From NCBI GenBank assembly GCA_021773795.1, contig JAJFJT010000003.1, positions 62,001 through 126,000 of the forward strand: 64,000 bases of DNA. The letters are read 5' to 3'. Origin of the DNA: Gammaproteobacteria bacterium (lineage in GTDB: Bacteria; Pseudomonadota; Gammaproteobacteria; HK1). The position numbers and the translations under genes were made by a program. The notes below the pieces were generated by a model. That model searched no databases and was not told the DNA's origin. It saw only the letters and a program-made list of their open reading frames with translations. Below, piece after piece: positions 50,156 through 62,575 of this stretch. Every line of letters starts with the position of its first letter. Position 1 is the stretch's first letter.

Positions 50156-50854
50156 TCAGGGAAGGATATAAGTGCGTTCCAGAATCTGTCGGGTGAAGGT
50201 GGTGCGCAGATAAAAGCCCCGTGGTAGTAGCCAGGTCGGTTGCCCCTCTGTACCACTGCCGCGGCGCAGGCTGCGGGCATTGGCCCCCTTGGGTCGAATC
50301 TGCAGGTAGACTCCGTGGTGTGCCGTTATTTCCTCAATTTTCCCGAGTGTTACAAGATCCATTAACTCCTCCCAGTCTTGCCTGAGCGCGGCCTCCTCCA
50401 ACTCATTGGGTGACCACAGCAATGGCGTAGCAATGCGGCGATTGGCTACCGGCATGCCCCGTGGGCCCGCAATAGGAATCCATAATACCCGGGCCATCTT
50501 GCGGCGCAGATAGGACCCTTCCCAGTACACTCCGTCCTCTCCGGAGAGTGCCACCGGACAGACATAGGTGCTTTCCAAAGGCTGCCCTGCAAGGCTGATG
50601 GGCAGGGTTTTTAATTCGACACCGATGGACTGAAAATCAGGTTCCGGCAGTGATGAGGCAGTGGCTCCAAGCACACCCTCCAATAGCTGCCCGGCCCAAC
50701 CCTTGGCACGACGGTTTTCCCTCGGAGTGGCTTGTTGATAGCGCTGAGCCAGTTCACCGAGGCTAAGCCCGGCAATGGCCTGGCTACGGGCCATTAGCTC
50801 AGATTCATCCCCGGGGGGCGGGCTTGGAAAGAGAGGAGCTTCGGCCACCCTCAA
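50156..50854 (-). CDS. mutH: DNA mismatch repair endonuclease MutH
   Basis: 232 residues. The family core is visible: RRAKGWAGQLLEGVLGATASSLPEPDFQSIGVELKTLPI gives the catalytic Glu and the Asp-x-Glu-x-Lys set, with STYVCPVALSGEDG and LRRKMARVLWIPI after it. It nicks the unmethylated strand at hemimethylated GATC, directed by MutL. Presence of MutH implies Dam methylation and a gammaproteobacterium. Its start overlaps the stop of the ThiL N-domain ORF by four bases, an association I do not know from other genomes. Confidence 0.93.
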   Translation of the reverse strand: MRVAEAPLFPSPPPGDESELMARSQAIAGLSLGELAQRYQQATPRENRRAKGWAGQLLEGVLGATASSLPEPDFQSIGVELKTLPISLAGQPLESTYVCPVALSGEDGVYWEGSYLRRKMARVLWIPIAGPRGMPVANRRIATPLLWSPNELEEAALRQDWEELMDLVTLGKIEEITAHHGVYLQIRPKGANARSLRRGSGTEGQPTWLLPRGFYLRTTFTRQILERTYILP

Positions 50855-51300
50855 GTCTGCTGGTCGGTTACGCTGCCTTCATCACGAACCAGGCCGTGGA
50901 CGGCGAGAACTGCATTTAGCGGACCACTGGTGGTATCCCCCCCAACCAACTGTAATCCGCATTCCTTACAGGCTTGCAGTAGGTGAGTGCTGAAGGTATC
51001 CAGCCAGCCTTCATCGATTTCCGGCAGGCACAGGGCGAGGGTAGCCCAGACGGGTCGGGCATTTTTGGCCTTGAGTTGTTGTCGGCCCTCGGCAACCAGT
51101 TGAGAGGCAAAGTCAGCGGCATTAACGGTAACCAGTTGTGGCTCGGCGCTATTCTGGCTGCTCAGGGCACTGATCATGAGGTGTCCCGGCGGAGCTTGTA
51201 GTACGGCAGCATCGTCACCGACATCTACGACAACGCCACTACGCCGGGTACTCGATGGCCTAAAGAATCGCTCGATAAGGGAAAATTCTTCCAGTGGCAT
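50851..51300 (-). CDS. Stand-alone ThiL N-terminal domain (split/duplicate thiamine-monophosphate kinase)
   Basis: 149 residues that align with the first ~145 of E. coli ThiL: EFSLIERFF at the start, VDVGDDAAVLQAPPG (Mg-binding GDDxA), WATLALCLPEIDEGWLDTF and QLVGGDTTSGPL. Two motifs are lost: the STDTLVxGxHF segment reads SALSSQNSAEPQ and NxSDxAAMG reads NAADFASQLVAEG. The missing motifs are those retained by the other thiL gene at 52562-53461. It ends at the N-domain boundary. Its ATG abuts a family A repeat whose end supplies an AGAGG seven bases upstream. It is coupled to mutH by a four-base overlap. It may be a partner subunit, a regulator or a relic. Confidence 0.8.
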   Translation of the reverse strand: MPLEEFSLIERFFRPSSTRRSGVVVDVGDDAAVLQAPPGHLMISALSSQNSAEPQLVTVNAADFASQLVAEGRQQLKAKNARPVWATLALCLPEIDEGWLDTFSTHLLQACKECGLQLVGGDTTSGPLNAVLAVHGLVRDEGSVTDQQT

Positions 51301-51444
51301 GAGGGCGCCTCTAAAAATTCAAGATTCCAGGCAAGACAAGGCATGAGTAAAAAGTTGAGTGCAGCATATGCTTGATATGTAAGCGAAACTTTTTTGAGAA
51401 AAACGCCGTATTGCGACGAATATTGTGTTTTTAGAGGTGCCCAT
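51299..51444. repeat. MITE-like element, family A copy 3
   Basis: About 145 bp, ends GAGGGCGCCTCTAAAAATTC and TTTTTAGAGGTGCCCAT, interior as in copies 1 and 2 (CCAGGCAAGACAAGGCATG, GTAAGCGAAACTTTTTTGAG, CGCCGTATTGCGACGA). It separates the lytic transglycosylase gene from the ThiL N-domain ORF and touches that ORF's start codon. Confidence 0.82.
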
Positions 51445-51446
51445 GA

Positions 51447-52031
51447 CTACGAGGTGCGCCGGTAACTGCGGTAATAATCCAGCACCTTGCGCACATAGTT
51501 TTGAGTTTCGGGATAGGGGGGGATTTTGTTGCCGTAACGGATAACTGCATTTTCGCCGGCGTTGTAGGCCGCCAGGGCAAGGCGGACGTTGCGAAAGCGC
51601 GTGATCAGGTCGCGCAGATAGCGCACCCCGCCGTCAAGATTTGCTGCGGGATCTCGGCGATTGCTAACCCCATATCGGCTCGCTGTTCCGGGCATGAGTT
51701 GCATTAGTCCTACCGCTCCAGCTCGCGACACCGCCTTGGCATCGTAGGCTGATTCAGCGGTCACCACCGCATGTACCAGGGCTTTATCCATGCGGTAGCG
51801 TCTGGCGGTACGTTCGATTAGCGGGGTGTAGCGTTTGCGATTGGCGCGGCTCCAGTGGATCCCTTTGGGCACCCAGCCCTTCCAGGTGCGCACGATGGCA
51901 TGGTAGCCAGGGCCCAGGGGGCGGTCAGAGAGGTGTACGACGCCATTGGCATCGGTGAATTTGTAGATGTCGCCCCAAGCCGCGGAAAGCGGTGAAAGGA
52001 GGACTAATAGAAGCAGTAAGCGAGATGGCAT
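51447..52031 (-). CDS. Lytic transglycosylase, SLT domain with DUF4124 start
   Basis: 194 residues. Signal peptide (LLLLLVLLSPLSAAWG), a DUF4124-like strand (DIYKFTDANGVVHLSDRP), then an SLT domain (about 70-185). The catalytic Glu lies in VVTAESAYDAKAVSRAGAVGLMQLMP, and AAYNAGENAV with YPETQNYVRKVLDYY closes the fold. It cleaves peptidoglycan strands in the periplasm with formation of 1,6-anhydro-MurNAc, the substrate class recycled by AmpD and MupP in this window. Confidence 0.92.
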   Translation of the reverse strand: MPSRLLLLLVLLSPLSAAWGDIYKFTDANGVVHLSDRPLGPGYHAIVRTWKGWVPKGIHWSRANRKRYTPLIERTARRYRMDKALVHAVVTAESAYDAKAVSRAGAVGLMQLMPGTASRYGVSNRRDPAANLDGGVRYLRDLITRFRNVRLALAAYNAGENAVIRYGNKIPPYPETQNYVRKVLDYYRSYRRTS

Positions 52032-52065
52032 AGATTAATGCAGGCTTCGTGGTGATACTGGCAGA

Positions 52066-52608
52066 TTATAGCGGCAAATTACCGCTATTCTGCAGCCACT
52101 GGGCCAGACCCTGTACCACTAGCCAGGCCAAGGCCCCTGCAAGTACATCGTCGAGCATGATACCAAGTCCTCCCGGCACCCGTTGGTCCAGCAGTGAAAT
52201 TGGCCATGGTTTAAGGATGTCGAAAAAGCGAAAGGCGACAAAACCGACTGGCAGCCAGATCCAGCCAGTAGGCGCAGCGCACATGGTGATGAGATAGCCC
52301 GCAATTTCATCCCAGACAATGGCAGGATGGTCGTGAACTTTCAGGCGCTGAGCGGTGACCCCACAAAGCCAGATTCCCACGACAATGCTTAGCGCGATGA
52401 CTGCGAGATAGGGGTAGAGGGGGAGTGGCCGCAGGGTGAGATAGATGAGCACACCCACCAGGGTGCCCGCGGTACCCGGAGCGTGAGGAGCGAGGCCGCT
52501 CCCAAAACCACAGGCGAGCAGGTACGCGGGGTGTTCTCGGAGCAACTGAAAAGTGGGTTGTTTAGGAAAAATGTTGGTATGCCTGACCGGGATGGAAGGG
52601 GTTAGCAT
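52066..52608 (-). CDS. pgpA: Phosphatidylglycerophosphatase A
   Basis: 180 residues from the ATG at 52608; the frame is open to 52680. FGSGLAPHAPGTAGTLVGV, HDHPAIVWDEIAGYLITM and FRFFDILKPWPISLLDQRVPGGLGIMLDDVLAG are PgpA signatures, on a four-helix membrane protein. It dephosphorylates PGP to phosphatidylglycerol. The chosen start overlaps thiL by 47 bases, which suggests coupled translation. thiL-pgpA order is standard. Confidence 0.93.
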   Translation of the reverse strand: MLTPSIPVRHTNIFPKQPTFQLLREHPAYLLACGFGSGLAPHAPGTAGTLVGVLIYLTLRPLPLYPYLAVIALSIVVGIWLCGVTAQRLKVHDHPAIVWDEIAGYLITMCAAPTGWIWLPVGFVAFRFFDILKPWPISLLDQRVPGGLGIMLDDVLAGALAWLVVQGLAQWLQNSGNLPL

Positions 52609-53461
52609 TCGGATCCTGACAGCGTAGCCCGGGTTTTGTTTCGATGACGCCGACGCGATGAACGGCACAATTGATGGCATTCATAGCGCTTTCTATGTGT
52701 ACCTGCTGCTCCGGTGGGGCGGTAAAGCAGAGTTCATAATCATCCCCGGCACTAAGGGCGAGTTTCCATGCCTGTTGTTGGGGGAGAGCGTTGCGGCAGG
52801 CCGCTGACAGGGGCAGGGCGGCTACCTGCAACGTGGCCCCAACGGTGCTGGCCTGCAGGATATGGCCAAGATCACCCACCAGTCCATCGGAGAGGTCGAT
52901 GGCGGCGGAGGCGATATCCCGCAGGGCTAATCCAGCGGCAATACGTGGCGTGGGGTGGCTGTAGCGACGTTCTAACCAGGCCGTTTCTTTGGCATTCAGG
53001 TTCAGGTTTTGTTGCATGGCCTGGATGGCCAGGCCCGCATCGCCCAAGGTGCCGGTGACATAGATACCGTCACCCACCTGTGCTCCTCGGCGGCAGAGGG
53101 CACCATCGACGGGTACCTCGCCCCAGATTTCAATGCTGACACTGAGCGCACCGGGTTGTATCAGGGTGGTGCCCATGGCAACGGAGTGTAGCTCTGCGAG
53201 TTCCACGAGACCCCGATGAAAGTCCTGCAACCAGGTTTCATCGTCGGGGTGTGGCAGGGTGAGCGCCAGATTCAGCCAGCGGGGTCTGGCACCCATGGCC
53301 GCCATGTCACTGAGATTGACCGCCAGGCTGCGATAGCCAAGGGCCGCTGGCACGAAGGTGTGGGGGAAGTGCACCCCCGCCACCAGGGCATCCATGGATA
53401 CCGCCCATTGCCTATCCGGTGGCAGTCGATGGCTTCTAGCAGGCTGCTGAAAAACCCTCAT
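52562..53461 (-). CDS. thiL: Thiamine-monophosphate kinase, N-terminally truncated
   Basis: 299 residues aligning with E. coli ThiL from about residue 38 to the end. The first ~37 residues, including GDDxA, are replaced by eight codons from a repeat element that also holds the start codon (53461). Retained motifs: SMDALVAGVHF, LAVNLSDMAAMGARPRW, IYVTGTLGDAGLA, AIDLSDGL, and SAGDDYELCF. The GGDTTxGP motif is degraded to AMGTTLIQPGA. The frame is otherwise open and the C-terminal domain well conserved, so selection seems to persist. The enzyme makes thiamine pyrophosphate. No ribosome site precedes the ATG. See the N-domain ORF at 50851-51300. Confidence 0.85.
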   Translation of the reverse strand: MRVFQQPARSHRLPPDRQWAVSMDALVAGVHFPHTFVPAALGYRSLAVNLSDMAAMGARPRWLNLALTLPHPDDETWLQDFHRGLVELAELHSVAMGTTLIQPGALSVSIEIWGEVPVDGALCRRGAQVGDGIYVTGTLGDAGLAIQAMQQNLNLNAKETAWLERRYSHPTPRIAAGLALRDIASAAIDLSDGLVGDLGHILQASTVGATLQVAALPLSAACRNALPQQQAWKLALSAGDDYELCFTAPPEQQVHIESAMNAINCAVHRVGVIETKPGLRCQDPNANPFHPGQAYQHFS

Positions 53462-53582
53462 ACGGCACCATACGGCGTTAAAAATCGGCTCAAAATGCTC
53501 ATTTACGATCTGTAAACTCCGCTTTTTCGCGAATTTTTGCCTTGTCTGGCACTCGCATGAACCCTTTTCAACAGCCTGCTAG
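53436..53582. mobile_element. MITE-like element, family C, inserted at the thiL 5' end
   Basis: 147 bp with 17-bp terminal inverted repeats differing at one base (TAGCAGGCTGCTGAAAA; right end TTTTCAACAGCCTGCTA), flanked by CTAG on both sides. The interior includes GCATACGG-like and AATTTTTGCCTTGTCTGGC segments. It has no ORF. It occupies the place of the nusB-thiL junction and of the missing first codons of thiL. Confidence 0.88.
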
Positions 53583-53605
53583 AGGTGCTCCTGCTTGCCC
53601 GCTGA

Positions 53606-54052
53606 TCAGTCACTTTTGTCGGCGTTTGCTTCCAGATTGCGATGCAGTTTATCGAGCACGCCGTTGACGTATTTGTGGGCTCCGGCGGCGCCAAAGTCCT
53701 TGGCTAATTCTATCGCCTCGTTGATGACGACGCGCCAGGGTACGTCCTGGCGAAAACGTAATTCATAGGTGGCGATGCGCAGGATGGCCCGTTCTACCGG
53801 ATTGAGTTGTTCCACCGAGCGATCGAGGCAGGCCTCGAGCAAGGGATCGATCTCTCCGAGTTTTTCAGGAAGATTGGTGAAAATGTCCTGGAAGTATGGG
53901 ATATCGGCCTTCTTCATGCCGTCATCTTCCAGGAACTGAGCCTCTATGGTCAGCGTCCCCTGGCCCGTACTTTGCCACTGATAAAGGGCCTGCATGGCAG
54001 AACGCCGGGCGCGTCGGCGGGCGCCAGCGGATACACGTGGGGCATCAGTCAC
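53606..54052 (-). CDS. nusB: Transcription antitermination factor NusB
   Basis: 148 residues, all helical. RRRARRSAMQALYQWQSTGQ at the N-terminus (boxA RNA-binding arginines) and ILRIATYELRFRQDVPWRVVINEAIELAKDFG at the C-terminus are the family hallmarks. With NusE it binds boxA in rRNA transcripts. The gene overlaps ribH by eight bases. The usual close nusB-thiL junction is broken by an inserted repeat. Confidence 0.96.
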   Translation of the reverse strand: MTDAPRVSAGARRRARRSAMQALYQWQSTGQGTLTIEAQFLEDDGMKKADIPYFQDIFTNLPEKLGEIDPLLEACLDRSVEQLNPVERAILRIATYELRFRQDVPWRVVINEAIELAKDFGAAGAHKYVNGVLDKLHRNLEANADKSD

Positions 54053-61867: not shown

Positions 61868-62575
61868 TCAGGTGACACGCTTGCGACGGATGCCGCAGAA
61901 AACCAGGCCGCTGGCGAGCAACAATGCGGTGGCTGGTTCAGGAACGACGCTCATCCGGTCAATTTTAAAACGGTCACTGTCACCATCCGCCCAGAAGAGG
62001 AATTTGGTGCCGTGGACTCCGTTGAAGAAGAACTCGTCCGACTGCCCCGATACATTGGTGACCAGTGGTGACGAATCCCCCGCATTGTAGTCGACCAGGA
62101 GCGATACCCCATCAACGGTCAAATTGAAGTCGTCACTACCAGAGAAGTTGTCGAAGTTAATGTAGGTAAGGTCTATAGCTCGACTAAAGGAGAACAGCAG
62201 TCCTTCATCGGGTTCTGATGAACCAACATCGCCGCCGTCCATCTGGGTTCCGTCACCGGATTGTGTGCTGTTCTTCACTCCGAGATTCTCACTGCTACTG
62301 ACATACACACCGAAGCCCGATCCTGTTATCTGCGTCTGGCTGCTAATGGTACCGTTCCCATCGTTTGCTATCTCGAACGCGGTGATGGTGACACCGATAG
62401 TGCCAACGGTCATGCCCACGGAGTTGTAGGCCGTGCTTTCCGTGACACCGAGATTGCTGGCGTTGAAATCAAAGATTTTGGTGGCGGATGCCGAACTGGC
62501 TGCCAGGCACAGTACGAGACAGCCAATGGTCCGGGCAAAGACCGAAACTCGTGACGCGCGCGATGATAAAGACAT
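61868..62575 (-). CDS. PEP-CTERM sorting domain protein
   Basis: 235 residues from the ATG at 62575, with GGAGG ten bases upstream. Signal peptide (FARTIGCLVLCLAASSASA), a beta-rich body (YINFDNFSGSDDFNLTVDG, FFFNGVHGTKFLFWADGDSDRFKIDRMS) resembling other secreted PEP-CTERM proteins of unknown function, and the C-terminal VPEPATALLLASGLVFCGIRRKR. Expression should depend on the sigma-54 promoter at 62637-62622. Confidence 0.9.
   Translation of the reverse strand: MSLSSRASRVSVFARTIGCLVLCLAASSASATKIFDFNASNLGVTESTAYNSVGMTVGTIGVTITAFEIANDGNGTISSQTQITGSGFGVYVSSSENLGVKNSTQSGDGTQMDGGDVGSSEPDEGLLFSFSRAIDLTYINFDNFSGSDDFNLTVDGVSLLVDYNAGDSSPLVTNVSGQSDEFFFNGVHGTKFLFWADGDSDRFKIDRMSVVPEPATALLLASGLVFCGIRRKRVT

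Follow-up and report, generated by a model that had tools for sequence, protein, structure and literature searches.

The region analyzed here, hereafter the window, is a 64,000-nucleotide stretch (positions 62,001 to 126,000 of contig JAJFJT010000003.1, assembly GCA_021773795.1) of the genome of a Gammaproteobacteria bacterium. On its minus strand lie two genes related to thiL, the gene for thiamine-monophosphate kinase, which we refer to as BIG and SMALL, together with pgpA, a lytic transglycosylase gene, mutH and nusB (Table 1). BIG holds the thiL position of the common gammaproteobacterial gene order rib-nusB-thiL-pgpA, both in the window and in relatives. The name nusB was assigned from the sequence and its position, supported by synteny in relatives.

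Table 1. Features of the thiL region; coordinates are positions within the window.
Feature	Coordinates	Strand	Length	Description
BIG ThiL	52562..53461	-	299 aa	N-domain without helix α1, GDD and GGDTT, plus a complete C-domain; keeps S-x-D, H54, NLSD, SDGL, D219, H222 and GDDYEL
SMALL ThiL	50851..51300	-	149 aa	N-domain only; keeps helix α1 (EF..I...F), GDDAA and GGDTT; lost D47, H54 and NLSD
pgpA	52066..52680	-		between BIG and SMALL; conserved neighbor; the listed ORF overlaps the end of BIG, the real start is probably near 52560
SLT-domain lytic transglycosylase	51447..52031	-		between pgpA and SMALL in some of the genomes
mutH	50156..50854	-		directly downstream of SMALL; conserved neighbor
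nusB	53606..54052	-		directly upstream of BIG
Dispersed repeat	53435..53583			30-nt inverted ends (80% complementary), at the 5' end of BIG; contains the listed ATG of BIG

Both proteins match ThiL profiles. The NCBIfam model TIGR01379 aligns to BIG over positions 33-320 with 262.8 bits, above its cut-off of 184.15 bits, and to SMALL over positions 1-142 with 73.8 bits, below it, whereas both fall short of the cut-off of 441 for NF004350. Pfam finds AIRS and AIRS_C in BIG and AIRS alone in SMALL; BIG lacks the N-terminal helix/GDD segment, and a complete N- and C-domain is present only in the pair together. AlphaFold models of the single chains (pLDDT 93.6 for BIG and 85.0 for SMALL) match solved ThiL structures best, 8yks for BIG and 5cm7 for SMALL. 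The listed start of BIG lies inside a dispersed repeat with 17 full or partial matches in the genome, one of them about 0.1 kb downstream of thiC, so the true start of BIG may be further in. No GDD motif is hidden in any of the three frames of the 210 nt upstream of BIG, and the same holds in the relatives apart from one out-of-frame GDDG in one genome (G009; genomes are numbered with the prefix G). A frameshift or assembly error is thus rejected, also because the division of motifs described below recurs in separate genomes.

An initial annotation of the window had proposed that the two genes are incomplete copies of thiL with exactly reciprocal active-site motifs, and this observation is confirmed. 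In the window BIG keeps Asp47, His54, the NLSD Asp75, D211, S213, D214, D219, H222 and GDDYEL and lacks GDD and GGDTT, while SMALL keeps GDD and GGDT and lacks D47, H54 and NLSD. Two points of that annotation need refinement: Ser45 of the S-x-D motif is not diagnostic, because 19 of 55 ordinary ThiLs have Ala there, and the term ‘split’ is misleading, as these are two paralogs that overlap in the N-domain and not a gene cut in two.

To determine whether the partition extends beyond this genome, we aligned 19 BIG, 20 SMALL and 55 full-length ThiL-like sequences from the class, one of which later proved to be a SMALL-type copy. D47, H54, N72, S74, D75, D211, S213, D214, D219, H222 and the D, Y and E of GDDYEL are kept in 19/19 BIG sequences. 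G28, D29 and D30 are kept in 20/20 SMALL sequences, and G120, G121, D122 and T123 in 19/19 (SMALL of G007 ends before this motif). Conversely, D75 is lost in 20/20 SMALL and D47 in 19/20, the exception being SMALL of G056, which still aligns an Asp at 47. In BIG the GGDTT motif is broken in 19/19 (G006 keeps the two glycines but not Asp122, and five rows keep an Asp at 122 without the glycines), and the GDD segment is absent or unrecognizable, although six rows align an Asp at position 30. At these single positions the loss in BIG is therefore incomplete, but no BIG sequence keeps both motifs, and the N-terminal alignment is unsure. Conservation is reciprocal: helix α1 is invariant at several positions in SMALL and not kept in BIG, and the C-domain motifs are invariant in BIG and absent or degenerate in SMALL. 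The pattern is far more than chance or one broken gene, since the same partition recurs in these sequences. The other full-length ThiLs examined in the class have complete motif sets, apart from GGN in place of GGD in four of them (L019, L026, L027 and L028); Asn at this position is also described for A. aeolicus ThiL.

Published structures of ordinary ThiL dimers, in which the active sites lie between protomers, account for this partition. In the P. aeruginosa enzyme Mg1 is held by Asp122, Mg2 by Asp75' and Asp47' of the other protomer, and Mg3 by Asp30, Asp75' and Asp211'; Thr123, Gly28 and Gly121 contact the nucleoside (Thr123 the adenine), helix α1 lines the adenine pocket, and His54' and Tyr189' bind TMP (PMC13254938). 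In the A. baumannii enzyme ATP/ADP binds one molecule of the dimer and TMP/TDP the other (PMC6416309). An ordinary site thus consists of an ATP half (helix α1, GDD, GGDTT) from one chain and a TMP/metal half (S-x-D, H54, NLSD, C-domain) from the other. With residue roles transferred by alignment, SMALL keeps the first half and BIG the second. By residue content, a BIG-SMALL dimer would hold one complete site and one vacant one, and a homodimer of either protein none. SMALL also dispenses with the C-domain, and BIG with helix α1, each being the part its half does not need.

All 17 genomes examined from the order of the window's genome (one family, eight genera) carry both genes, and where both lie on one contig the order is nusB-BIG-pgpA-(SLT)-SMALL-mutH on one strand, as far as each stretch reaches. 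One genome (G013) contains two nearly identical copies of SMALL about 4 kb apart (L049:4623-5453 and L049:8577-9407). Two genomes of another order (G017, G056) carry both genes on separate contigs, while a third of that order (G055, 90% complete) shows neither. G073, the only genome examined of its order, has a full-length SMALL-type copy with a degenerate C-domain in which SDGL is lost (L171:211-1260), beginning about 0.2-0.3 kb from a contig end, and no BIG was found. In a class-wide but partial profile search for further lineages of this kind, no other short N-domain frame stood up: G074 looks like an ordinary thiL divided into two overlapping ORFs in different frames (L186:2795-3755), probably by a frameshift, G370 runs close to a contig end, and G174 and G357 also lie at contig starts. 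Because full-length degenerate copies such as that of G073 score like ordinary ThiLs, more lineages may have been missed.

Intermediates suggest the order of events. SMALL of G006, G008 and G009 still has a C-domain, but with Asp214 and Asp219/His222 altered, and within one genus G009 keeps this domain and G012 has lost it. In G006, SMALL is close to an ordinary ThiL in its N-domain except that Asp47 is Lys and Asp75 is Arg. This suggests duplication, then complementary loss of metal ligands, then trimming. In phylogenetic trees the SMALL sequences of the order and G073 group together, as do most BIG sequences of the order. The BIG tree does not reject a single clade (AU p = 0.34), but rpoB marginally places the two sets of species apart (AU p = 0.04), so a single origin is unresolved. 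It is a tentative possibility, and in our view less likely than not, that the conversion of a homodimeric kinase into an obligate heterodimer with one active site happened more than once, in the window's order and separately in the lineage of G073, G017 and G056.

Both genes are under purifying selection. Between the three genomes of the window's genus dN/dS is 0.13-0.16 for BIG and 0.11-0.17 for SMALL, compared with 0.02-0.13 for neighboring genes, although synonymous sites are near saturation and these values are rough. Moreover, the window's genome encodes ThiC and ThiE and gives no thiamine pyrophosphokinase (TPK) hit, so TPP should need a TMP kinase. The only other hits of that genome in the ThiL search lie in hypE (next to hypD) and purM (next to purN).

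With the sum of this evidence, we infer with high confidence that BIG and SMALL form a two-subunit thiamine-monophosphate kinase, derived from an ancestral homodimeric ThiL that was duplicated and whose two copies lost complementary halves of the shared active site. In this account SMALL supplies helix α1 and the adenine pocket, Asp29/Asp30 of GDD, and Gly121/Asp122/Thr123 of GGDTT, and BIG (about 290 aa) supplies the TMP half and the other metal ligands, Asp47, His54, Asp75, Asp211, Asp214, Asp219 and His222, with the C-domain, the two pairing through their N-domain sheets as ordinary ThiL protomers do. That BIG and SMALL bind each other, that the dimer phosphorylates TMP, and that neither acts alone are inferences from sequence, context and single-chain predictions. 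The initial annotation had inferred duplication and complementary degeneration and had suggested that the copies may form an obligate heteromer with a composite site, and this interpretation is supported and fits every test that could be run; neither an intact thiL elsewhere in the genome nor close relatives carrying only one, frameshifted piece, either of which it had named as grounds for mere decay, was found.

Alternative explanations are much less likely. Decay, in which one or both genes are relics and TPP is made by another ThiL or another route, could be argued from the loss in each gene of residues that are near-invariant in the 55 full-length ThiLs and from the dispersed repeat at the 5' end of BIG in this strain. 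It is strongly disfavored by the recurrence of the partition in all 17 genomes of the order, by the low dN/dS of both genes, and by the absence of another ThiL or a TPK from the window's genome despite the presence of ThiC and ThiE, although across G001-G016 the other weak superfamily hits, below 100 bits against the cut-off of 184, were not named one by one. It is also unlikely, though slightly less so, that BIG works alone as a TMP kinase with a rebuilt ATP site while SMALL has a separate role in regulation or in something linked to its neighbor MutH. BIG does pass the TIGR01379 cut-off by itself and SMALL does lie next to mutH, but the invariant residues of SMALL include exactly the ATP-site residues that BIG lacks, which a separate role would not predict, and BIG has no conserved replacement for the GDD or GGDTT segments.

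Finally, the pair could be a heterodimer with a composite site that now phosphorylates something other than TMP, as both proteins have diverged and form long branches. This too we consider very unlikely, given that BIG keeps the TMP-side residues His54, Asp211, Asp214, Asp219 and His222 in 19/19 sequences (Tyr189 was not scored), that the rib-nusB-thiL-pgpA position is kept, and that no other TMP kinase was found in a genome with ThiC and ThiE.

If this account is correct, the pair is an unusually clear natural example of how a homodimer whose active site is shared between chains can be driven by duplication and complementary loss into an obligate heteromer, with intermediates preserved in living lineages. 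It also means that genome annotation gives a false picture here, since BIG alone passes the ThiL cut-off and would be called a complete enzyme. ThiL is studied as an antibacterial target, and a natural system in which the ATP and TMP halves can be mutated separately would help dissect the mechanism of ThiL and the PurM superfamily.

We found no published two-subunit ThiL in literature searches that did not reach most subscription papers. The pair resembles known ThiL (TIGR01379; PDB 8yks/8yku, 5cm7, 6xep) in fold, in its conserved residues as a set, in operon position and, by inference, in the inter-protomer active site. However, the ThiLs in the cited structural papers are homodimers in which every chain carries all motifs and each dimer has two sites, whereas here the motifs are divided between two genes, implying one site per dimer. 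The FGAM synthetase domain of StPurL, a PurM-fold pseudodimer of the same superfamily, likewise comprises two gene-duplicated halves with two-fold pseudosymmetry and one productive site per pseudodimer, but its halves are fused in one polypeptide and each keeps both sub-domains, while here the copies are separate genes and one has lost its C-domain. In the trypanosomatid prozymes of deoxyhypusine synthase and AdoMetDC the active enzyme is also a heteromer of paralogs from gene duplication, both of which are essential (PMC3663545); these enzymes are eukaryotic, have an unrelated fold, and are described as a catalytically impaired subunit activated by a dead paralog, not as a clean division of site residues with domain loss.
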